From positions 434,001 to 498,000 of the forward strand of contig NZ_CP097121.1 of the NCBI RefSeq assembly GCF_024029675.1: a stretch of DNA of 64,000 bases, given 5' to 3'. Under the pieces are notes generated by a model, which did no database searches, was not told the origin of the DNA, and saw only the letters and a program-made list of their open reading frames with translations. This DNA is from Fructilactobacillus carniphilus. Its GTDB lineage: Bacteria > Bacillota > Bacilli > Lactobacillales > Lactobacillaceae. This document shows positions 25,547 to 40,485 of the stretch, piece by piece; position 1 is the stretch's first letter, and each line of letters starts with the position of its first letter. Made by a program: the position numbers and the translations under genes.

Positions 25547-27001
25547 ATGCAGAAAAAATGGTGGAAGTGGTTGTTACTGACCATCATGCTGATTGTGGGA
25601 ATCAGCGTTACCGGTAACAGCGTGCATGCGGATGACTCACTGCAAAAAGTGAAGGATAAGGGAGTATTAACGGTGGCAACCTCGCCCGATTATCCTCCGT
25701 TTGAGTTTCAGGTTAACCAGCACGGCCATTCCAAGGACGTTGGAATGGACATTGAGTTAGCCAAACAAATTGCTAAGGATTTAGGAGTGAAGCTTCAGAT
25801 TAAGAATATGGATTTTAACTCCCTCTTAGTGGCCATTCAGACCGGGAAGGCTGACATGGCCATTGGTGGAATTAATCCTTCTCCAGAACGGAAACAAAAT
25901 GCGGATTTTTCCCAGATTTATTACTACGGGGGTGAATCATTTTTAATCAATAAAGCAGATACAGAAAAGTTGAAAAATCAAGCTGCTCTAAAGGGATTAA
26001 AAGTGGGAACCCAAACCGGATCCATGCAACAAAGTTTGGCCAAAAAGAATTTAAATGGTACCAAAGTGGTCACCATGGATAAAAATACCGATTTAATTCT
26101 GGCTTTAAAAACTCACAAAGTTGATGCCGTGGGAGTAGAAACCCCCGTAGCGCAAGCTTACGTGCAAAATGATCCGGACCTCAAAATGGTTAAAGCTAAC
26201 TATCACTTAAACAAACAGGATACTGGTTCTGCGGTGGCCTTACCGAAGGGCGCCACGACTTTACAAACGGCTGTGAATCAGTCAATTGACAAAGCCAAAG
26301 CCCAGCACTTGATGCCTCAGTATCTAAAAAAAGCCGGTAAGTATATGAAGGTTAACACCGCTGATACATCGATGATGCATTACTGGAAGTACTTCTTTAA
26401 CGGGTTAAAGTACACGCTGTTAATTTCTGTCTGTGCCGTTGCGGGTGGAATTATCCTGGGAATCATATTAGCCCTGATGCGGTTGAGTAATTTTAAGTGG
26501 CTGAGTTGGCCCGCCGTTAGTTACGTCGAAGTGGTCCGTGGCACTCCGATGATGGTGCAAGTGCTCCTAGTATACTTTGGTCTGGGAGTGTTAGTTAATA
26601 TTCCGGCCCTTCCGGCTGGGATGATTGCGGTGACTTTAAACAGTGCTGCCTATGTCAGTGAAATCATCCGGGGTGGAATCAACTCCGTTGCCAAGGGGCA
26701 AAAGGAAGCGGCCAAGAGTCTCGGCTTATCCAAAACTGATGCATTACGTTTCATTGTTTTACCCCAAGCCTTTAAGAACATCTGGCCAGCCCTTGGAAAT
26801 GAATTTATTTCGGTCATCAAGGAAAGTTCGATTGTCTCGATTATCGGAGTTACGGATTTAGTTTACGAACTAAACGTCGTAAGGGCTGATACCTACCGAG
26901 GAGTGGCGCCCATTGTCGTGGTAATGGCCATCTACTTCATCATTACCTTTACGCTAACCAGACTATTAAATTACATGGAAAGAAGAATGAAACACGATTA
27001 A
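25547..27001 (+). CDS. Fused amino-acid ABC transporter binding protein/permease, copy 1
   Basis: A single 484-residue chain joins an extracellular substrate-binding domain to a membrane permease. Residues 1-28 are a signal peptide/anchor. A polar-amino-acid-type binding domain spans about 32-270 ([30 protein letters not shown], the DMAIGGI segment). The His/Glu/Gln/Arg-type permease spans about 285-484, with the EAA loop [29 protein letters not shown] that contacts the ATPase. A GGAGGAG lies 8 nt before the ATG. The substrate is not provable from sequence; co-transcription with argGH suggests arginine, ornithine/citrulline or glutamine. Confidence 0.9.
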   Translation: MQKKWWKWLLLTIMLIVGISVTGNSVHADDSLQKVKDKGVLTVATSPDYPPFEFQVNQHGHSKDVGMDIELAKQIAKDLGVKLQIKNMDFNSLLVAIQTGKADMAIGGINPSPERKQNADFSQIYYYGGESFLINKADTEKLKNQAALKGLKVGTQTGSMQQSLAKKNLNGTKVVTMDKNTDLILALKTHKVDAVGVETPVAQAYVQNDPDLKMVKANYHLNKQDTGSAVALPKGATTLQTAVNQSIDKAKAQHLMPQYLKKAGKYMKVNTADTSMMHYWKYFFNGLKYTLLISVCAVAGGIILGIILALMRLSNFKWLSWPAVSYVEVVRGTPMMVQVLLVYFGLGVLVNIPALPAGMIAVTLNSAAYVSEIIRGGINSVAKGQKEAAKSLGLSKTDALRFIVLPQAFKNIWPALGNEFISVIKESSIVSIIGVTDLVYELNVVRADTYRGVAPIVVVMAIYFIITFTLTRLLNYMERRMKHD

Positions 27002-27019
27002 ACGGAGGAGGAACTAGCG

Positions 27020-28474
27020 ATGCAGAAAAAATGGCTCAAGTGGTTCTTGGTCATGGTAACGGTTGTGTTAGGGAGCACCCTGGCTAAAGCAACCGTCCAT
27101 GCTGATGACTCACTGCAAAAAGTGAAAGAACAAGGCGTATTAAAAGTAGCGGTTGCTCCCGATTATCCGCCGTTTGCCTTTCAGGTTAACGAACACGGCA
27201 AGTCTAAAGACGTGGGAATGGATATTGAAGTGGCGAAACAAATTGCCAAAGACCTCCACGTGAAGCTCCAACTAAAGAACATGGATTTTAACTCCGTCTT
27301 AGTAGCCGTTCAAACTGGAAAAGTTGATTTAGCATTAGGAGGAATTAATCCGACTCCCGCCCGGGAACAAAATGCCGATTTTTCTAAAATCTATTACTAC
27401 GGAGGCCAAAGCTTCCTGATTAACAAAACTGATGCTAACAAGTTAAAGAACCAAAAGAGTTTGAAGGGTGAAAAAGTCGGAACCCAAACTGGTTCGATGC
27501 AACAAACCTTAGCCAAAAAGCATTTAACCGATAGTAAGTTAGTTAGCATGGATAAGACCACGGACTTAGTCTTAGCAATCAAGACTCACAAGGTTAACGC
27601 TGTGGGAGTGGAAAAGCCAGTGGCGCAGGCCTACGTGGAAAATGATCCGGATTTAAAGATGATTCCCGCTGACTATAAGTTAGACAAGAAAGAAACCGGC
27701 TTTGCGATTGCTATGCCGAAGGGAGCTACGACCCTCCAAACGGCTGTGAACCAATCGATGGACAAGATTGCCCAACAACACTTAATTCCACAGTATCTAA
27801 AAACGGCCGCTAAGTACATGAAGGTTAACACCGCCAACACTTCGATGTGGCACTACTGGAAGTACTTCTTTGATGGCTTAAAATACACGTTTTTAATTTC
27901 TGTTTGTGCGGTTGCTGGCGGAATTATCCTGGGAGTATTGCTAGCCCTGATGCGGTTAAGCAACGTGAAATGGTTAAGTTGGCCCGCCATTAGCTACGTC
28001 GAAGTAGTCCGGGGCACTCCGATGATGGTGCAGGTACTATTAGTCTACTTTGGTCTCGGAATTTTGATTAACATTCCTGCATTACCTGCCGGGATTATCG
28101 CGGTGACCCTCAATAGTGCCGCTTATGTTAGTGAAATTATCAGAGGAGGAATCAACTCCGTGGCGAAGGGGCAAAAGGAAGCTGCTAAGAGCCTCGGTTT
28201 ATCAAAGCATGATGCTCTCCGGTTCATTATCCTACCGCAAGCCTTTAAGAACATTTGGCCTGCGCTAGGAAATGAGTTTATCTCAGTTATTAAGGAAAGC
28301 TCAATTGTTTCGATTATCGGAGTAACGGACTTGGTTTACGAACTAAACGTCGTGAGAGCTGATACCTATCGGGGAGTTGCTCCCATTGTCGTGGTAATGG
28401 CCATCTACTTTATCATCACGTTTACGCTCACAAGACTATTAAATTACTGGGAAGGAAAGATGAAACATGACTAA
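27020..28474 (+). CDS. Fused amino-acid ABC transporter binding protein/permease, copy 2
   Basis: A tandem paralogue of the preceding gene with the same length (484) and the same layout. The permease half is nearly identical by eye. More changes lie in the signal peptide and binding domain (for example [15 protein letters not shown] and [14 protein letters not shown]), so the pair may differ in affinity or substrate while sharing one ATPase. It begins 18 nt after copy 1 with CGGAGGAGG before the ATG. Its stop overlaps the ATPase start by 8 nt. A heterodimeric permease made of both copies is possible; this is inference. Confidence 0.9.
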
Positions 28475-29210
28475 TCCATTGATTAAAATTGACCACATTC
28501 AAAAACAATTTGAAAAAAACGAAGTACTAAAGGACATTAACGGAGAAGTAAATAAAGGTGAGGTAGTGTGCATCATTGGACCATCTGGTTCTGGTAAAAG
28601 TACCTTATTACGGTGCATTAACCAGTTAGAAACGCCAACTAGCGGAGCGGTTTGGTTCAACGGCAAAGATTTAACTAAGGAAACGGCCCAACAGCTTTCA
28701 ACGCTAGGTGAATCAATTGGGATGGTATTTCAGAACTTTAACCTGTTCCCCAATCTAACGGTGATTGAAAACCTCACGTTAGCACCAATTCGGGTAAAAA
28801 AGATGAGTCAAGCTGAGGCCAAAAAAATTGGAATGAAGTATTTAACTAGAGTTGGTTTGGCAGAAAAGGCGGATGCCTATCCAGCTAGTCTGTCCGGGGG
28901 ACAACAACAACGGGTGGCCATTGCGCGGGCCCTTTCAATGAATCCGGAAGTGATGCTATTTGACGAACCAACGAGTGCTCTAGATCCAGAAATGGTCGGA
29001 GAAGTGCTCCAGGTAATGCAAGAACTGGCGGATGAAAAGATGACCATGATTGTGGTGACTCATGAAATGGGCTTTGCCAAAAAGGTAGCTGATCAAGTCT
29101 GGTTTATGGACGGGGGGTACTTATTAGAAAAGGATACGCCCGAGGAAATCTTTGACCATCCGAAAGAGGAACGGACGAAAGACTTCATTAATAAAATTAT
29201 TGTCGATTAA
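28467..29210 (+). CDS. glnQ: Amino-acid ABC transporter ATP-binding protein, GlnQ-like
   Basis: Cytoplasmic ATPase that powers the two fused transporters encoded upstream. All motifs are present in 247 residues: Walker [10 protein letters not shown] (about 38), Q-loop region [13 protein letters not shown], signature [15 protein letters not shown], Walker [15 protein letters not shown], and the switch histidine in [10 protein letters not shown]. It belongs to the polar amino-acid uptake group. It is translationally coupled to copy 2. argG follows after 22 nt with no terminator, so the T-box should control argGH as well. Confidence 0.94.
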
Positions 29211-29232
29211 AAAGCAGAAGGAGGAAATTACA

Positions 29233-30444
29233 ATGGCTCAACCAAAAGTAGTATTAGCATATTCAGGTGGATTAGATACGTCGGTAGCCATCGCTTGGTT
29301 AACTGACCAAGGTTACGACGTGGTGGCTTGTTGTGTAAACGTTGGTGAAGAAAAAGACGCGGCAATGTTAGAAGCCAAGGCGCTCAAAACCGGAGCGGTA
29401 GCTGCGTACGTAATTGATGCTAAGGATGAATTTGCCGATAACTATTTAACGTTAGCACTACAGGGAAACGTTTTGTATGAAGGAGTTTACCCACTGGTTT
29501 CCGCATTATCACGGCCGTTAATCGTGCAGAAGTTAGTGGAAGTTGCTCAGCAAGAAGGGGCGACGGCGATTGCTCATGGTTGTACCGGGAAAGGAAATGA
29601 TCAGGTGCGGTTTGAAGTTGCCATTCACGCGCTTGCTCCCGACGTTGAAGTCCTTAGTCCCGTTCGGGATTGGCATTGGTCGCGGGAAGAAGAAATTGAC
29701 TACGCCAAAGAGCATGACATTGAAATCCCAATTAACTTGGATTCGCCATACTCCATTGATGCCAACATCTGGGGTCGGGCTAACGAAGCAGGTGTGTTAG
29801 AAGACCCGTGGGTCAGCGCCCCGGCGGATGCCTTTGCGCTGACCAATTCGATTGCGGATGCACCCGATCAACCCACAGAGTTAGTTATTAGCTTTGAACA
29901 TGGAAAGCCAGTTGCTCTAGATGGTCAGAAAATGGCTTTTGCTCCATTAATTGAAACGCTCAACCAAATTGCGGGAGAAAATGGAGTGGGTCGGATCGAC
30001 CACATTGAAAACCGATTAGTGGGAATCAAATCGAGAGAAATTTATGAAGCACCGGCAGCGATGGTTTTGATTAAAGCGCATCAAGCATTAGAAAACCTCA
30101 CCTTGGAACGGGATTTGGCGCACTCCAAGTTAAACATCGAAAAAGAATTGGCCGAATTAATTTACAACGGGCTCTGGTTCTCTCCGTTAATGCAAGCTTT
30201 GCAGGCCTTTATTACAAAGAGCCAACAAGTAGTAAATGGAGATGTTCGGCTTAGTCTATACAAAGGCAATATTACCATCCTAGGGCGGCAATCTAACTGG
30301 AGCTTGTATGACAAAGATTTGGCTACTTACACCGCTGCTGATTCGTTTGATCAAGAAGCAGCCAAAGGATTCATCAAGTTGTGGGGCTTACCAACCCAAG
30401 TAGCGGCTCAGGTAGCACAAAAAGAGGCAGATCATCATGAGTAA
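29233..30444 (+). CDS. argG: Argininosuccinate synthase
   Basis: Joins citrulline and aspartate using ATP, the penultimate step of arginine synthesis. The N-terminal PP-loop [15 protein letters not shown] (about residue 7) binds [16 protein letters not shown] and [17 protein letters not shown] are family signatures. The length of 403 is normal. AAGGAGG (29218-29224) places the start at 29233, not at the ATG inside glnQ. The argH start overlaps its stop. No argF, argJ or other upstream arginine genes are in the window, so citrulline must come from elsewhere. Confidence 0.97.
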
Positions 30445-31866: not shown

Positions 31867-32496
31867 CTAAAAGTTAACGACTTCGGGAGCATCACGGAAG
31901 GATTCAATCACAGCGGAAGTGATGGTGATTTCTAGGACTGCTTGGTTGGTAATGTTATCGTTAAAACCTTGTAAAGCAGTAGTGGAATTTACTAATTCCG
32001 TAATGGCTGGTTTGCCTTGGATTACTCGGGCCGTTGCTTGATTAGAAGAGAAGCGCGTCCCCAGTTTGGGATCATATAAGCTGGCGATGGCGACTTGGGG
32101 ATGATTAACAGCATTTTGAGCTCGTTTTGTTTTGGGATCAGTGACGACGTATAACACATTTTCTTGTTTTTCAGATTGAGTATAAGTAACAATTGAATTA
32201 CTGATATTACCAGCAGAATCACTGGTAGCAAGATAGAAGTTTCCAGGTAGTTTCGCTAGCACCTGGCTGAATTTGGATTGGGCTGGTTGGTTTTCCCCGC
32301 TGGCGGTTTCCCGCTTGGTCATTTTGCGAATGGTCATAATGGTTAGTGGAATGACCAAGACGATGTAGCCAATGATTCCACCAAGCAAAATTAAGAACCA
32401 ATAACTAGTAAAGAAGTTCCAACCGTAAATTAAACTTCCCAGGATAAAGGAAATTACATAGACAATAAATAGTTCGACGAATCTTTTTAAATACAT
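31867..32496 (-). CDS. Membrane-anchored split-barrel (pyridoxamine-phosphate-oxidase-like) protein
   Basis: A 209-residue protein with two N-terminal transmembrane helices (about 8-28 and 33-56) and a charged linker. The cytosolic C-terminal domain (about 77-205) resembles FMN-binding split barrels of the pyridoxamine 5'-phosphate oxidase superfamily: LPGNFYLATSDSAGNISNSIV, YVVTDPKTKRAQNAVNHPQVAIASL and the C-terminal strand LEITITSAVIESF. An enzyme activity is not provable. GAGGTG lies 7 nt before the ATG. It is monocistronic, convergent with argH. Confidence 0.7.
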   Translation of the reverse strand: MYLKRFVELFIVYVISFILGSLIYGWNFFTSYWFLILLGGIIGYIVLVIPLTIMTIRKMTKRETASGENQPAQSKFSQVLAKLPGNFYLATSDSAGNISNSIVTYTQSEKQENVLYVVTDPKTKRAQNAVNHPQVAIASLYDPKLGTRFSSNQATARVIQGKPAITELVNSTTALQGFNDNITNQAVLEITITSAVIESFRDAPEVVNF

Positions 32497-32577: not shown

Positions 32578-32615
32578 AAAAAAGGTAGATGCATTAAATT
32601 AATCGCATCTACCTT
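32578..32615 (-). terminator. Terminator of the 14-codon peptide gene
   Basis: On the - strand, AAGGTAGATGC (32615-32605) pairs with GCATCTACCTT (32592-32582) over a 12-nt loop, followed by a U run from 32583 to 32578. It lies 24 nt after the peptide stop codon and faces no other gene, so it supports a real short transcript. Confidence 0.88.
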
Positions 32616-32639: not shown

Positions 32640-32684
32640 TTAGAATTTAAAGAACCACGTAAAAATGTTAAAGATTGATGGCAT
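32640..32684 (-). CDS. Leaderless hydrophobic signalling-type peptide, 14 residues
   Basis: A tiny gene encoding MPSIFNIFTWFFKF, divergent from the rgg-type gene. AAGGAGGTG (32699-32691) is close to a perfect Shine-Dalgarno and ends 6 nt before the ATG. A TATAGT -10 (32719-32714) lies upstream, and a strong terminator follows. The peptide has seven aromatic residues and no signal sequence. In streptococci, Rgg-family regulators sense short hydrophobic peptides encoded beside them, including leaderless ones such as that of RopB. By position and composition this is a likely ligand of the adjacent regulator. Expression, export and binding are inferred. Confidence 0.72.
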   Translation of the reverse strand: MPSIFNIFTWFFKF

Positions 32685-32713
32685 AGTTAACACCTCCTTA
32701 GTTATCTAAATAC

Positions 32714-32759
32714 ACTATAACTTAGATTTAGGAATCTTTAACCAAATGTAGTAAATCTA
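32714..32759 (-). promoter_or_regulatory. Promoter of the peptide gene with an inverted-repeat operator
   Basis: On the - strand, TATAGT (32719-32714) is the -10; the -35 is weak, as expected for an activated promoter. Immediately upstream, TAGATTTA (32723-32730) and TAAATCTA (32752-32759) form a perfect 8-bp inverted repeat with centres 29 bp apart. It is the best candidate binding site for the Rgg regulator. Confidence 0.6.
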
Positions 32760-32791
32760 CTTCATTTTTCAGATTAACTAGTTAGCCAGTG

Positions 32792-32800
32792 TGTTACAAT
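32792..32800 (+). promoter_or_regulatory. Candidate rgg promoter (extended -10)
   Basis: TGT followed by TACAAT (32795-32800), 57 nt before the TTG start of the regulator. No good -35 is seen. It diverges from the peptide promoter. Confidence 0.5.
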
Positions 32801-32857
32801 ACTCACCAAATTGTTGTCATGCAATTAGGATGATTTTAATATTAAGGAGGAGCTATT

Positions 32858-33718
32858 TTGACAGAGTTTGGAAAATTATTGAAATACTTACGTACAAGCC
32901 GTCAGGTTACCCAAAGCCAGTTGGCGCATAACCTAATTTCACGTGATACGGTAGTACGAATTGAAAATAAACATCAAAGTCCTTCTTTTGAAACAGGAAC
33001 TGAAATACTGGAAAAATTAGGTATTTCTCTAAGTGATTTTGATAAGCAGCGAGCTGCCTATAATCCTAATAGTTTTTCTGAGTTAAGTCAGTTGTTTTTA
33101 TATCAACTAAGTAGTTCTGGTGATCATCAAACCCTAGAAAGAATCAAAGGATTAGCACGGAAAATTTATCAAAAAGATGAGAACAACACTGCGAGAAATA
33201 TCATGTTAGCTGTAGAAGCAATGATGAAAATTGATGATGAGAATTTTGACGTGCAAAAACTAAAATCATTACGGCGTTTACTAAAACCAGTCTGGAATGA
33301 TTTATCGAAAATTGATGAGTGGTGCATGTTGGACTTACGAATTTTAGATGCGAGCCTGTTTTTCTTTGAATTAGAAACGGCCCGCGAGATTATGTACCAC
33401 GCTTTTCGAATTATTGATAAAAAATATCCGACATTAGCAGGATTAAAAGCAGCATTTAGTGCTAATTACTGTTACTTATTAATTTTAAACCAAAAAATTA
33501 AAGCACCATTTTTAGAATTAGCAGAATCACGGAAAATTGCTTCACAGACTGGTAGATATGATTTAGTTTTAGTGGCTGATATTCGCCGGATTGTCTTAGA
33601 ACATTTACCTGATTATGAAATTAAGGTAAATCATAAGTTAGCCATTTTAAATGATTTGGGTGCCCAAAAGTTAGTTATATCGTTACGAAAGGAAATTAAT
33701 ACTATTTTAGCTAGGTAA
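32858..33718 (+). CDS. Rgg/RopB/GadR-type transcriptional regulator
   Basis: A 286-residue regulator with an N-terminal XRE helix-turn-helix (about residues 5-62: GKLLKYLRTSRQVTQSQLAHNLISRDTVVRIENKHQSPS). A long all-helical C-terminal domain (about 70-286) is of the kind that binds peptides in the Rgg family. The start is TTG at 32858, 5 nt after AAGGAGGAG. Rgg was first named as regulator of a streptococcal glucosyltransferase gene; here a glucansucrase gene follows 90 nt downstream and a short hydrophobic peptide gene lies divergently upstream. A quorum-controlled glucan-production role is an inference from this layout. Confidence 0.85.
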   Translation: MTEFGKLLKYLRTSRQVTQSQLAHNLISRDTVVRIENKHQSPSFETGTEILEKLGISLSDFDKQRAAYNPNSFSELSQLFLYQLSSSGDHQTLERIKGLARKIYQKDENNTARNIMLAVEAMMKIDDENFDVQKLKSLRRLLKPVWNDLSKIDEWCMLDLRILDASLFFFELETAREIMYHAFRIIDKKYPTLAGLKAAFSANYCYLLILNQKIKAPFLELAESRKIASQTGRYDLVLVADIRRIVLEHLPDYEIKVNHKLAILNDLGAQKLVISLRKEINTILAR

Positions 33719-33740
33719 TTGTAATAATTTTGCTACAATC

Positions 33741-33769
33741 TTAAAATATTTTCGATAAAGTTTTAGAAT
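33741..33769 (+). promoter_or_regulatory. Candidate glucansucrase promoter
   Basis: TTAAAA (33741-33746), 17 bp, then TAGAAT (33764-33769). The -10 is flanked by TAAAGTT (33756-33762) and AACTTTA (33770-33776), a 7-bp inverted repeat that could be an operator. An alternative extended -10, TGC-TACAAT, lies at 33731-33739. Confidence 0.4.
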
Positions 33770-33808
33770 AACTTTAATCAACTCAAACAAACCGGAAGGG
33801 GATTATAG

Positions 33809-36800
33809 ATGTTTAATAAAACTTGTCGAAAAAAGATGTACAAAGCGGGGAAGTCCTGGGTAATTGGGGCAATTTTCACCATTACGTTAGCTGGAGTTAC
33901 CGTAGTTGGTGGGAACCAGGTCTCTGCTGCTGATAATCAGAATGAACCAGCTACTAGTATAACTAAACAGGTTGATTCTAATGAAGCGAATAAAGCTGAT
34001 GATAGTCAACAGACGCCAGATCAAAAGCAACCTGATGTAAAAGCTGCTGAGGAAAATCCAACAGTTACGCAACTAGCAACCAAAACTGATGCTGCCACTG
34101 GAAATACGCAAACGGAAGCAGCTCAAACGGAAAAGCAGGAAAGTCAGTCAGAAAAAAGTAGCGTTGCTGCAGAAGCTCCGCAGCAAGCAGCTAATTTAGA
34201 ACAAGATGCTGCTAATAATGCTTCAGATCAACAAAAGGCGGTTCAATCAACATCAGAACAAACACAAACTGATGCTAATGCTAAAGAGACGAACGTCGAG
34301 TCACAAACTAATCAATTAGATTCAAAGGCTAGTTCTGATCAAGCAGATTCCGAAAAACAAAACTCGGAAAGTGGCGAACAACCAGATTCAAAGAATGAAC
34401 TTCGTCATGACTCCAAAGAAACAAAAAATACAGATTCTAACCAGCAACCCGAATCAGCAAAAACTGATGATGAAGAACAAGATGAAGAAGAGACTGATTC
34501 TAACAAACAAAATAAATTACCGGAAAAACCAGGACAGTATCTTGATAAAAATGGTGATTTTTACTATCAATATGATGATGGTAGCTATGCTAAAGGTTTA
34601 ACCACGATTAGTGGATTCACTCAATACTTTGATTCTGACGGAAAACAAGTAAAAGGTAACTACGCTACGATTGATGGTAAAAATTATTACTTTAAGCCCG
34701 GGAGTGGTAATCTTGCCACTGGAATTCAAACGATTAATTCCCAAAAAATTGCATTTAATAAAGATGGTAGTCGAGTGCAAAACTCATTTTATGAATCTGA
34801 TAAGCAAAAAGCATTGAATAATTTAGATGCTTTAAAATTGCAACCAGACGATGATGACGAAACTGGGAATAGCGCTAGTTCAAATAGTAACCCTTATTAT
34901 CACCAACGGAAAAAAGAAAATGACAAAAATAAAGTATCCGGAAATATTTATTATGTCGATCAAAACGGTGAAATTGTAACAGGATTACAAACGGTTGATA
35001 AAAAAACTTACTATTTTGACGGTAGCGGAATTATGCGGCGGGGATTCTCAGGAGTCTTTAATGGAGAATTACTTTATTTTGATGCTAAGACTGGAATTGC
35101 AACGGAAACTAAAAATTCCAAAATCAAAGAAGGAATTAATGATCAGACCACTGCATACACACCTCATAATGCTGTCAATGGAACCTCAAAGGATAATTTT
35201 AAAAACATTGATGGATATTTAACTGCTGAGTCATGGTATCGACCAAAAGAAATTTTGGCTGAGGGGAAAGACTGGCGGGCATCGACAGCTAATGACTATC
35301 GTCCGATTCTAATGACTTGGTGGCCAGACAAAAAGACGGAAGTTAACTATTTAAATTATATGGTTAAAGCCGGCTTAATTGATAACCAGCAAGGGTTTAA
35401 ACTTGATGATGATCAACATTTATTAAATGAATCAGTTACCGCTGTGCAAAAAGCGATTGAAACTAAAATTAGTCAACGGAATGATACAGAATGGTTACGT
35501 GAATTGATGAAAGATTTCATCAAAGAACAACCACAGTGGAATATTATTAGTGAAACTCCTAATCATGATCACTTGCAACGAGGAGCGTTAAGTTTCGTTA
35601 ACAGTAAATTGACGCCTGACTCTAATTCAAACTTCCGTTTGATGAATCGGACGCCAACGAACCAAACTGGAAAAGAAAAGTATGACGTTGATAAAAGTAA
35701 GGGTGGATTTGAGTTACTATTAGCTGATGATGTTGATAATTCCAATCCTGTGGTTCAAGCGGAACAATTAAACTGGTTACATTTCTTAATGCACTTTGGT
35801 TCCATTACTAATAATGATCCAGATGCTAATTTTGATGGAATTAGAATTGATGCCGTTGATAACGTTGATGCTGATTTACTCAATATTTCTGCCAAGTACT
35901 TTGATTCCTTATATGGGGTAAAAAAATCTGATAAAAATGCGATGAGTCATTTGTCCATTTTAGAGGATTGGAGTCATAATGATCCGCTTTACATGCGTGA
36001 TCATGGTCAAGGTCAGCTTAGTATGGATGATTATAGCCATACGCAGTTAATCTGGTCACTAACTAAACCAGATAAACTGCGGGGTGCGATGAAACGATTC
36101 TTAGAATATAAAATGGTAGATCGAAGCCGAGATAATCAAGATAATCAAGCTCTACCTAATTACTCTTTCGTAAGAGCACACGATAGTGAGGTGCAAACGG
36201 TCATTGCGCAAATTATCGAGGATTTATATCCTGGGGTGAAAAATAGTTTGGCACCAACCCAAGCTCAGCTTGATGCTGCTTTCAAAGTTTACAATGAGGA
36301 TATGAAGCAGGCTAAGAAAAAGTATACTCATTACAATATGCCGAGTGCATATGCAATGATGCTTACCAACAAAGACACGATTCCTCGGATTTACTATGGA
36401 GATTTGTATACTGATGATGGGGCATTCATGGAAACCAAATCACCGTACTTTGAAGCAATCGATAATTTCCTTAAGACCAGAATGAAATATGTAGCTGGTG
36501 GGCAAACGATGGATGTCGATAAAAATGATGTCTTAACCAGCGTTCGCTTTGGAAAAGGGGCTATGAATGTCGATGACCAAGGGACTGATGAAACTAGAAC
36601 CGAAGGAATTGGAGTAATTGTCAGCAATAATCACGATTTGAAGTTAAATGAATCTGATCAAGTTGTATTGCACATGGGAGCTGCCCATCGAAACCAAGCC
36701 TTTAGAGCAGTAATTTTAACGACGACCGATGGCTTACAAAATTATGCTACTGATGAACAGGCTCCCGTTCGTTGGACAAATGAAAATGGAGATTTAATTT

Positions 36801-38668
36801 TCACTGGTAATGAAATTAAGGGTTATCTCAATCCGCAAGTTTCTGGATATCTTTCTGCATGGGTTCCGGTTGGGGCAGCCGCAAATCAAGATGCAAGAAC
36901 TAACGCCAGTGACCAACAGAATAACGATGGGAATACTTTCCGGTCTAATTCGGCTTTAGATTCACAAGTTATTTTTGAAGGATTTTCAAATTTTCAAGCA
37001 ATGCCGAAAACGATTGATGAATTTGCTAACGTTCGGATTGCTAAAAATGCTCAAATGTTCCGTGATTGGGGAATTACTAGTATGCAGCTTGCACCACAGT
37101 ATCGGTCTAGTGAAGACGACACTTTCCTAGACTCAATCGTTAAAAATGGATACGCATTTTCAGACCGATACGATCTTGGATTCAATACGCCAACTAAATA
37201 TGGAACTGATGGACAGTTGCGTGATGCAATTAAGGCGCTTCATGCCCAAGGAATTCAAGTTATGGCTGACTTTGTTCCTGACCAACTTTACAACATGAAA
37301 AAGCAGGAACTAACGACGGTCAATCGGACGGACTCCCTAGGAAAGCAGAATACTGATTCTGATATGCAGGGAGACCTATATGTTTCTAATACCCGTGGTG
37401 GTGGAGCTTACCAAGAAAAATTTGGTGGAGAATTCTTAGATCAATTGCAAAAAGATTATCCAGAATTATTTAAGGATAAACAGATTTCAACTGGTCAACC
37501 AATTGATCCAAGCACTAAAATTAAGGAATGGTCTGCTAAATACTTCAATGGAAGTAACATTGAAGGTAAGGGTAAAGATTTCGTCTTAAAGGATCCTTCT
37601 ACTGGTCATTACTTCAAGGTGGTTGATAATGGGAACGGTAATGGCTATCTGCCAAAACAATTGGTTAACCTACCTTCTTCCGCCGGATTTACTCGTGATC
37701 AACAAGGAATTATTTACTTTGATACGAGCGGTTATCAAGCTAAGCATTCTATCATTAAAGATGACTTAGATAATTACTACTACTTTGATGACAGTGGTCA
37801 TTTAGCAACGGGAGAACAAACGATTAATGGTTCCAAGTATTACTTTTTACCAAATGGAACTGAACTAAGAAGTTCATTCTTCCAGGGGCAAGATGGCAAT
37901 ACGTATTATTACACCGGTTCAGGAAAACAAGCGCGTAACCAATACGTTCTAGATAAGGGTGGTAATGCCTACTACTTTGGTGATGATGGGAAGATGTTGA
38001 CTAATCAACTATATTCCGTTGAAGGACGGTATACCCAATATTTTGACCAGAATGGGGTGGAAGCTAAAGACCGCTTTGTTAAAACTCCCGATGGTCACGT
38101 TCATTACTTTGATGATGGAAGCGGAAACTTAGTTGCTAATCGTTATGCTGGTGATCATGATGGTAACTGGTATTACATTGATAGGAACGGAAATGCTGCG
38201 ACTGGACTGATTGAGCTAGATGGAGTGAAAAAATATTTCCACGACAATGGAATTCAAAGTAAGGGTGAATTTATTGACCTTGGAAATAATCAATTTTTCT
38301 ATACCGATGCAAGAGACGGACACATTGTTTCTGGATATCAAGTAATTAATGGACATCCACATTATTTCGATCCTAAGACTTCAATTCAAGTTAAAGGTGA
38401 TTTTGCTACTAATCCGGAAACCGGTAAAACTTATTACTTTGATGTAAATAATGGTACTCCGGTAGAAAATCAATATATTACCAAAGATGGTAAAACTTAT
38501 TATCTTAATGCTGCTGGTGAAAAGGTATACGGAACCCAAGTGATTGGGGGAAAAACCGTTAACTTTGATCCACAAACGGGAGCATTGTTACAAGAAACTG
38601 TAGATGACAAACCTGAAGCTACTACGGTTACTAATAACGATGAAGCCAAAACAGCAGTTACTAATTAA
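33809..38668 (+). CDS. Glucansucrase (GH70), probable dextransucrase
   Basis: A secreted enzyme that polymerises the glucose of sucrose into alpha-glucan. Residues 1-40 form a long signal peptide with the KxYKxGKxW motif (KMYKAGKSW). A Gln/Ser/Asp-rich variable region follows (about 41-235), then N-terminal glucan-binding repeats. The permuted catalytic core is about 455-1240. The order is II (nucleophile D681 in [11 protein letters not shown]), III (acid/base E719 in ILEDWSH), IV (D792 in [13 protein letters not shown]), then I ([10 protein letters not shown], about 1152), which proves circular permutation. SEVQT after D792 is typical of alpha-1,6 dextransucrases. About ten C-terminal YYFD-type glucan-binding repeats run to the end; no LPxTG anchor is present. 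Confidence 0.95.
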
Positions 38669-38716: not shown

Positions 38717-38864
38717 ATTGGTTGAAAACGTTGATATAAAGCGATTGCAACCCATCGTTGCGAGCTTGTCAGCGAAACAGAGCTAGAGATTCCCTAGTAT
38801 ATTAATCATTTGATTTGCTATATTGAGGACAGTAAAGTTAATCAACTTAGAGAGGACAGCGCAA

Positions 38865-39758
38865 ATGCAAAATAATTCATTAGGGAAGCAAATTATTCGA
38901 TTGCGACAACGACAACAATTATCTCAAGCTCAATTAGCGGAACGCTTATTTGTGTCTAGACAAGCAATCTCGAAATGGGAAAATGGGGACGCGGAACCGG
39001 ATTTAGATAAATTAGTGCAACTAAGTCAAATTTTTAATGTCGATTTAGACTATTTAGTTTTAAATCAACCGATGCGACAAACGTCAATTTTGGCATTAAC
39101 AAAGATTAGTAAAAGCTACAATCAACCGATTTTAAAAAATGTAAGCTTTAGTTTACATAACCATGAGCGAGTCGCTTTATTAGGAAGTAATGGAGCAGGG
39201 AAAACCACGCTCGTTAACTTAATTGCCGGCCGAATTAAACCAGATGCGGGAAACATTGAAAGACATTATCAACCTAAATTAGAGTTTAGTTTAATGCCAC
39301 AAAAAAACGTATTAATTGGGCCAATGCGCGTGCAAGAAATGATTGAGCTAGAAGTTAGCATTGCCAACTTAAAAATGATCGATATTGACGGGTTACTAAA
39401 AAGTGCCAACTTATGGGAACAACGACAACAAGTAGTCGATTCATTATCCGGTGGGCAACAACGAAAACTGATGTTTTTGTTGACGATGATGAAATCCGCT
39501 CAATTATTTATTTTCGATGAACCTACCGTGGGGATGGATTTAGAGACCATTGACCGCTTTTGGCAGCGCTTGGACCAAATTTCTGGGACCACATTGGTGA
39601 TCACCCATGATTTTAATCAGATTGATCATTATTTTGACCGGGTGTTGCTATTAAAAAACGGAGTTATCGCTGCTGATGAACAGGTCGCTATGATTCACGC
39701 GCATAATCAAGATTTAGATGCCTGGTATCGTGGTCATAATCAAGTGCAGGAGGACTAA
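38865..39758 (+). CDS. XRE helix-turn-helix domain fused to an ABC transporter ATPase
   Basis: A 297-residue chimera. Residues about 5-62 are an XRE-family DNA-binding domain (GKQIIRLRQRQQLSQAQLAERLFVSRQAISKWENGDAEPDLDKLVQL). Residues about 78-285 are an ABC ATPase with Walker A GSNGAGKTT, signature SLSGGQQRKLMFLL, Walker B LFIFDEPTVGMDLE and switch His in VITHDFNQID. The ATG at 38865 follows GAGAGGA; an upstream ATG lacks a ribosome-binding site. A permease gene starts one base after its stop. The fusion suggests that transporter occupancy or ATP state could be tied to gene control, probably autoregulation; this is inference. Confidence 0.88.
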   Translation: MQNNSLGKQIIRLRQRQQLSQAQLAERLFVSRQAISKWENGDAEPDLDKLVQLSQIFNVDLDYLVLNQPMRQTSILALTKISKSYNQPILKNVSFSLHNHERVALLGSNGAGKTTLVNLIAGRIKPDAGNIERHYQPKLEFSLMPQKNVLIGPMRVQEMIELEVSIANLKMIDIDGLLKSANLWEQRQQVVDSLSGGQQRKLMFLLTMMKSAQLFIFDEPTVGMDLETIDRFWQRLDQISGTTLVITHDFNQIDHYFDRVLLLKNGVIAADEQVAMIHAHNQDLDAWYRGHNQVQED

Positions 39759-39759
39759 C

Positions 39760-40485
39760 ATGAACAATTACTTAACGCTCAAAATGACCTTTCGAAATCG
39801 GCGTTTTCTTTTTTTCACGATGATAACTCCGCTTTTATTCTATTTATTGATGCACTTAATTAATCGTAATGATGCGTCTGCTGGTTCTAATTCGTTATTA
39901 ATGGTTACTTGTTCTGTTGTAATGGGAATTGCTGGTAATTCCTTAGTGACATTCGCCAAATCATTTAATTACACGAAAAACTTTTATTTACTCCAGATGG
40001 AGACGTCACCATACACCATTAAACAATGGATTTTTGATGATCTTTTGTGCCAAACCATTCTTAACGCTGTAATTGCAATTGTAGTAATAATTTTTGGAAT
40101 GTTACTGGGTGACTACGGATTGTCTGGGAAGTTATTAATTTTGTTTTTGCTACTGCTGTATCTTGGAATTTACCTCAGTTTATTTGGTTTTTTAATTGGG
40201 CAATGGCTAGATGCCCAAACTCTTGATGCCACTAGTTTCTTTTTAATGTTTGCAGTGATGTTTTTATTGATCCCATTTCATGAATTTGCAAACGGAAAAT
40301 TTGAACAAATTATTACGAAAATTCAGCAATTATTTCCACCTTATTACCTATATCAAGTGATTACGGCTAAATTTCTCGGTCAAACCTGGATGATTAACGT
40401 GGGCTGGTTCATTGGGATTAGCTTATTGACGGGGATTCCAGTAATCATTGGCATTTATTACTTACTAAAAAAACAAACCGTATAG
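39760..40485 (+). CDS. ABC-2-type transporter permease
   Basis: A 241-residue integral membrane protein with about six helices (near 15-35, 48-68, 98-125, 128-152, 160-182 and 215-238), the layout of ABC-2 export permeases. GGAGGA lies 6 nt before the ATG at 39760, inside the end of the ATPase gene, so the two are translated together. Its only ATPase partner is the HTH-ABC chimera. The exported substrate is unknown; such pairs often handle antimicrobial peptides or lipids. Confidence 0.82.
   Translation: MNNYLTLKMTFRNRRFLFFTMITPLLFYLLMHLINRNDASAGSNSLLMVTCSVVMGIAGNSLVTFAKSFNYTKNFYLLQMETSPYTIKQWIFDDLLCQTILNAVIAIVVIIFGMLLGDYGLSGKLLILFLLLLYLGIYLSLFGFLIGQWLDAQTLDATSFFLMFAVMFLLIPFHEFANGKFEQIITKIQQLFPPYYLYQVITAKFLGQTWMINVGWFIGISLLTGIPVIIGIYYLLKKQTV

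Follow-up and report, generated by a model that had tools for sequence, protein, structure and literature searches.

The Rgg family of regulators is named after the regulation of a glucosyltransferase, and in Streptococcus gordonii rgg sits adjacent to its glucosyltransferase gene. This founding Rgg regulates gtfG; the account in PMC13361665 leaves its cognate peptide unnamed and describes orthologs elsewhere as using SHPs, in which a leader is present and processed. A second group, the RopB/leaderless communication peptide (LCP) systems reported in 2023, includes SIP of S. pyogenes, LCPss of S. salivarius, LCPem of E. malodoratus, and LCPlr of L. reuteri, with peptides mostly of 8–10 hydrophobic residues and a few exceptions in length (PMC10518010). 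Receptors of that group were selected by TIGR01716 matches with E below 1e-5, an identity to RopB of 25% or more across 70% of the length, and a place in the tree's RopB clan, and in the case of RopBss a palindrome lies just upstream of the peptide-promoter -35 (PMC10518010). The words "Fructilactobacillus" and "glucan" are absent from the main text of that report, and in the open-access literature (subscription journals lay outside the search) we found no paper that describes this locus or connects a known Rgg peptide with a glucansucrase.

We analyzed a 64-kb stretch of Fructilactobacillus carniphilus DNA (the window), which carries a trio consisting of a minus-strand mini-gene of 14 codons, a divergent gene for an Rgg-like regulator, and a GH70 glucansucrase gene directly downstream of the regulator. 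We think it likely that this trio is a self-contained unit that switches glucan synthesis under the control of a peptide. As in LCP-RopB systems, an ultra-short ORF rich in aromatic and aliphatic residues, with a strong Shine-Dalgarno sequence, diverges from the gene of a receptor made of an HTH and a C-terminal domain, and the presumed target gene follows the receptor gene, as the target does in E. malodoratus, there in convergent orientation (PMC10518010). Unlike in those systems, the peptide has 14 residues including a lysine, rather than mostly 8–10; its gene ends at its own terminator, with the target presumably reached through a second copy of an upstream element placed before the glucansucrase; and the receptor does not match TIGR01716, the filter that defines the published set. 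For this last reason we do not file the trio as a member of the RopB clan, although it would work like one. With S. gordonii Rgg-gtfG the locus shares an Rgg-type regulator beside the gene of a glucan-making enzyme and is set apart from it by the peptide gene and the element common to the two promoters; with the Rgg/SHP systems (Rgg2/Rgg3 of streptococci) it shares a hydrophobic peptide ORF adjoining an Rgg-family gene, the ORF here differing in having 14 codons and no obvious leader. We regard the trio as a concrete candidate for a peptide-controlled glucansucrase, apparently a variant of LCP-like systems. If this is true, a glucansucrase is under a dedicated peptide signal, and because peptide, receptor, operator-like elements, and enzyme lie in one 6-kb unit, peptide control of glucansucrases becomes directly testable with one synthetic peptide.

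The mini-gene (32640–32684, minus strand) runs from an ATG at 32684–32682 to a TAA at 32642–32640 and encodes the candidate signal peptide MPSIFNIFTWFFKF, as read directly and rechecked. Its near-ideal Shine-Dalgarno sequence AAGGAGG (32693–32699, minus strand) lies 8 nt before the ATG, and both sequence and spacing are identical in all four genomes found to carry the trio. The window has 13 instances of AGGAGG followed by 5–10 nt and an ATG, and the remaining 12 mark the starts of ORFs of 91–484 aa, leaving the mini-gene as the sole short ORF in the window with an AGGAGG-type ribosome site. Sequence reading places the -10 box of the peptide promoter, TATAGT, at 32714–32719 (minus strand), with a hexamer, GTTAAA, 17 nt further upstream that makes a poor -35 and would be compatible with an activator-dependent promoter. 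Directly 3′ of the mini-gene, folding reveals a terminator hairpin with a T-run (32578–32615, minus strand; -22.6 kcal/mol, z -6.8; for a shorter stretch -19.3 kcal/mol, z -6.0), and a hairpin with a T-run follows the mini-gene in the other three carriers as well, similar in sequence in genome G004 and clearly different in G001 and G007. A preliminary description of this DNA had claimed a mini-gene with a near-perfect Shine-Dalgarno sequence, a -10 box, and a dedicated terminator, and all of these are confirmed, coordinates included. We considered a leader-peptide attenuator and rejected it: the mini-gene has its own terminator, and the next gene on the same strand begins 140 nt beyond with its own start, although transcription may read through. 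A structured RNA in place of a coding gene was likewise rejected, with just two Rfam matches (E 0.13 and 0.52) that fall far below the gathering scores.

The reading frame of the mini-gene is conserved in relatives. We compared the window's own genome (G000) with a genus set (10 genomes) and a family set (397 genomes). The ORF has 14 codons in all four carriers and encodes MPSIFNIFTWFFKF in the window and G004, MPSIFNVFTWFFKF in G001, and MSPFFNIFTWFFKF in G007, with a common C-terminus FN[IV]FTWFFKF. Across codons 5–14, seven columns vary among the four carriers, six of them at silent third positions and one exchanging I for V; under a random-placement null, which ignores phylogeny, as few changing columns arose in 3 of 20,000 trials. 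Coding-frame conservation, which the preliminary description had named as a check, holds in 4/4 carriers. At codons 2–4 the differences all change amino acids, and all of them are in G007. A DNA pattern for FN[IV]FTWFFKF, allowing up to 3 mismatches, found matches in 25 of the 397 family genomes and was exact only in the four carriers. The inexact matches (23 sites with 2–3 mismatches, in 21 family genomes) had no GGAGG-type ribosome site at any of the nine that we inspected, and one near match (L035), a 23-codon ORF with AAGGA 12 nt before its ATG, was judged to be chance.

The peptide itself is hydrophobic, mostly aromatic and aliphatic, with one Lys and without an obvious or charged leader. 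Trimming is possible, since G007 differs at residues 2–4 but preserves the final ten, and the amino-acid changes at codons 2–4 would suit a short pro-peptide like SHP or ComS whose first residues are removed, the C-terminal 8–10-mer being the signal and regulation otherwise unchanged. The LCP authors also propose longer precursor forms for their peptides (PMC10518010). There would be only four extra residues to remove, however, with no charged leader among them, and no protease gene is found among the three genes of the cassette, so that we rate a pro-peptide as a serious but less probable alternative to direct use of the 14-residue form.

The regulator gene (32858–33718, plus strand) starts 173 nt from the mini-gene on the opposite strand with a TTG codon and encodes 286 aa; a possible extended -10 of its own promoter, TGT-TACAAT, lies at 32795–32800 (plus strand) by consensus match alone. 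Profile searches identified an N-terminal HTH_3 domain (PF01381, 34.6 bits; cut-off 23) and a C-terminal domain weakly similar to Rgg_C and RopB. Rgg_C (PF21259) matched the window regulator at E 0.0066, below the cut-off, and matched the C-terminal pieces of 9 of 10 homologs at E up to 1 (best 5.1e-7). TIGR01716, the Rgg C-terminus model, gave no match at E up to 10 to the regulator protein or anywhere in its genome, and matched five of the ten members of the homolog alignment at E up to 1 (best 4.5e-5). Among solved structures, a profile of the whole regulator matched Lmo0325, PlcR, PrgX, ComR, chains titled "Transcriptional regulator" and "MutR family" (which we take to be Rgg2/Rgg3), and many plain HTH proteins, some of these matches being by the HTH only. 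With a profile of the C-terminal domain, the best two solved chains were both RopB, at an E-value of 0.014 that is weak alone, over 115 of 207 positions. We read this weak alignment by hand at the RopB contact positions listed in PMC6565748. RopB N192 corresponds to N203 and Y176 to Y190, neither of which varies among the 10 homologs, and F155 corresponds to F168; contact residue N152 corresponds to A165, the histidine switch H144 to M157, and R188 lies in a gap.

Aligning the intergenic regions of the four carriers, we found that a conserved block 5′ of the mini-gene reappears 5′ of the glucansucrase. In the peptide promoter it forms a 22-bp element, a putative regulator operator (AATGAAGTAGATTTACTACATT, 32745–32766, minus strand), and the second copy, ATTGTAATAATTTTGCTACAAT, lies in the glucansucrase promoter (33718–33739, plus strand), upstream of a -10 box, TAGAAT, read from the sequence alignment at 33764–33769 (plus strand). 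TTT[AG]CTACA is the part kept in all eight sites, two promoters in each of four carriers, and the distance from the end of CTACA to the -10 box is nearly constant: the peptide promoters have 27, 27, 27, and 26 nt, the glucansucrase promoters 26, 27, 26, and 26 nt (window, G004, G001, and G007, respectively). At the sequence level, the element lies just upstream of the peptide-promoter -35 in 4/4 carriers, a position that may parallel the LCP-RopB layout. Its dyad pairs, out of 11, number 9 and 8 on the peptide and enzyme sides in the window, 10 and 8 in G004, 7 and 6 in G001, and 6 and 6 in G007. At least 8 pairs occur in 121 of the 63,979 22-mers of the window and at least 6 in 2,606 (4%), and against this background the symmetry is notable in the window species and G004, is weak in G001 and G007, and is not notable in the last of these.

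Exact sites of a degenerate pattern of the element numbered eight in the ten genus genomes, one for each of the two promoters in every carrier; the six genomes that lack the regulator had none. Since these eight sites were the ones used to make the pattern, the result demonstrates specificity, not discovery, and with up to 2 mismatches the pattern was not commoner than its reversed control. In a less circular test, we built a matrix from the peptide-side sites only and searched the 64 kb of the window and 19 kb each of G004, G001, and G007. When the matrix was symmetrized, the glucansucrase site ranked 3rd, 3rd, 3rd, and 2nd among distinct sites (window, G004, G001, and G007); with the own species left out, it ranked 3rd in the window, beyond third in G004, 3rd in G001, and 2nd in G007; and without symmetrization it ranked 6th, 5th, 4th, and 3rd, in the same order. 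A 21-base element pattern with up to 2 mismatches had four matches in the window versus 0.52 expected, one of which is the peptide-side site read on its opposite strand, and TTT[AG]CTACA alone occurred three times in the window versus 1.5 expected. This motif was absent from 13-kb stretches surrounding two further GH70 genes, the second one of G004 and that of G005, and from the 4,032-base contig of G008. The preliminary description had pointed to an 8-bp inverted repeat upstream of the mini-gene (TAGATTTA at 32723–32730 and TAAATCTA at 32752–32759). This repeat exists in the window, but the alignment shows that it is not preserved in G001 or G007; we rejected it as the operator, which it probably is not, and the conserved element is the one at 32745–32766.

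The presumed regulated output is a 1619-aa glucansucrase (33809–38668, plus strand) for which a domain search identified a KxYKxGKxW signal, a GH70 catalytic domain (PF02324, 1051.5 bits), and choline-binding-type repeats. Its ATG lies 90 nt after the end of the regulator gene (33718 to 33809), as had been noted before, and the solved chains closest to it are titled Glucosyltransferase-S, DsrV, DSR-M, and Alternansucrase. The second GH70 enzyme of G004 carries MucBP domains; a GH70 survey includes a single MucBP-bearing GH70 enzyme, from Fructilactobacillus hinvesii (PMC11299179).

The regulator was found at E up to 0.001 in four of the ten genus genomes (G000, and at 96%, 81%, and 72% identity in G004, G001, and G007). 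In the family set, 13 of the 397 genomes had a match with an E-value of 1e-15 or less, the nine beyond the four carriers at 23–39% identity. All four genus genomes with the regulator carry the complete trio, with the mini-gene divergent from the regulator and the GH70 gene directly downstream, the association that the preliminary description had proposed to look for in relatives; since the four carriers are close relatives, this conservation is not independent. Comparison in 400-nt bins suggested that the trio has a history of its own. Against G004, the interval from about 32.54 to 38.68 kb is 90–99% identical at the DNA level and the flanks 65–82%, and against G001, which is the closest genome to the window in the flanks (86–96%), the same interval is 56–89% identical. 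One border of this block falls close to the terminator of the mini-gene and the other close to the stop codon of the glucansucrase gene (38668), and the block, a unit of about 6 kb, holds only the mini-gene, the regulator, and the GH70 gene. Most simply, this pattern reflects a joint exchange of mini-gene, elements, regulator, and enzyme between two lineages. The trio of G007 has a different position, across the neighboring ABC-transporter pair from where it is otherwise found, but it stays together there too. We lean toward a wider interpretation, in which the trio is an exchangeable pheromone-receptor-glucansucrase cassette and recombination passes the entire unit (signal, receptor, two operators, and enzyme) between Fructilactobacillus-like species, with glucan production and peptide dialect moving together. 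Such a locus would offer a natural case of apparent between-species exchange of a whole candidate signaling unit.

Together, the conserved frame and gene order, the shared element at the same promoter position, the dedicated terminator, the co-inheritance, and the presence of oligopeptide-binding proteins support, at the sequence level, a mechanism in which the mini-gene would be translated into a 14-residue hydrophobic peptide with a conserved part FN[IV]FTWFFKF. This peptide, either after leaving and re-entering the cell or without ever leaving the cytosol, would bind the C-terminal domain of the regulator. The loaded regulator would then bind the 22-bp element just upstream of the weak peptide-promoter -35, giving positive feedback, and the second copy 5′ of the glucansucrase promoter, turning glucan production on. 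Binding of the peptide by the regulator and of the element by the regulator, activation rather than repression, secretion and uptake, and the mature length of the peptide are the steps that we infer. In the carriers, a very short signal peptide probably governs glucan production. Of the quorum-sensing cassette originally proposed, the regulatory cassette is retained, on the strength of the conserved frame, the shared operator-like element, and the apparent block exchange, and the repeat named as its operator is replaced by a different element.

Whether the peptide leaves the cell bears on how the proposed switch would be used. It has no leader, no exporter gene lies inside the exchanged block, and signal and receptor are produced in one cell, all of which would suit a purely intracellular co-activator through which a cell senses its own expression and sends no signal to others. 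However, a published leaderless peptide is secreted and re-imported (PMC10518010), and a candidate exporter is at hand: in 4/4 carriers the trio is adjoined by a gene pair (38823–40485 in the window), judged by eye to encode a permease and an ATPase whose ABC domain is fused to an HTH-like stretch at the N-terminus. This pair lies outside the exchanged block and is possibly an exporter or immunity pair. The window's genome also encodes two SBP_bac_5 oligopeptide-binding proteins, although S. salivarius imports its LCP without needing Opp (PMC10518010) and these proteins are not tied to the trio, as at least one occurs in 10/10 genus genomes. On balance we find an exclusively intracellular role unlikely. 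It is far less probable that the mini-gene encodes a toxin or bacteriocin, a small peptide acting on membranes that is merely co-regulated with the glucansucrase: the peptide is indeed hydrophobic and aromatic-rich with one Lys, and a distant plasmid homolog of the regulator lies near helveticin-type genes, but the exchanged block has no further ORF able to give immunity, Rfam RNA families match at chance level only, and, in keeping with the arrangement published for LCP systems, the peptide lies opposite its regulator and comes with an operator-like element of its own. About equally improbable is that the shared element, a prediction from DNA sequence, serves another regulator and that the Rgg-like protein and mini-gene are bystanders of the glucansucrase locus, given that exact sites occur in the four regulator-bearing genomes and in 0/6 others (with a pattern built from the eight sites) and that the trio was apparently exchanged as one block.

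Beyond the genus, we looked for the peptide beside distant relatives of the regulator. A first scan of genome contigs found no relative of the regulator, and a second found seven loci, on contigs titled Weissella, Lactobacillus ruminis, Ligilactobacillus, and Lacticaseibacillus. No FNIFTWFFKF-like ORF led by a Shine-Dalgarno sequence was present within about 600 nt of the distant relatives in 12 loci, nor in five of six named distant-relative loci, the sixth (L060) being left out as its gene is broken. At two loci, in Weissella viridescens (L055:4370–6828) and Lactobacillus ruminis (L058:4776–6840), the distant relative faces a ThiF-family gene preceded by a short Shine-Dalgarno-led ORF ending in Asn (MKIKEVKEVQEKKMTRGEGGN and MDVDEKDVREIHHRCLRMN, respectively); these clusters presumably resemble the microcin-C type, with an MccA ending in Asn and MccB. 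In W. viridescens a further divergent ORF, encoding a hydrophobic peptide of 19 aa (MQGYIPSLMTTILIWVHAG), faces the regulator relative. The only plasmid homolog of the regulator (25% identity; L098:6001–11069) is on pIBH002-1 of Lactobacillus helsingborgensis, a honeybee isolate, close to two genes that carry the annotation helveticin J family bacteriocin.

Several minor features of the surrounding DNA were also recorded. Near the usual site of the trio, G007 has two ORFs without a match in the window (L047:11685–17209), one of which starts like what we take to be a restriction-modification specificity subunit (MIEKQNKPKIRFKDF...). Elsewhere in the window, 25547–28474 contains two tandem genes of 484 aa each, identical at 395 of 484 positions, which look like amino-acid ABC proteins with substrate-binding and permease parts fused; a single ATPase gene comes after them. 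The G001 ortholog of 29152–30444, argininosuccinate-synthase-like by eye, is split into two ORFs (L046:4605–5833), as is the G004 ortholog of 31867–32496 (L045:7498–8127), which suggests frameshifts or assembly errors.
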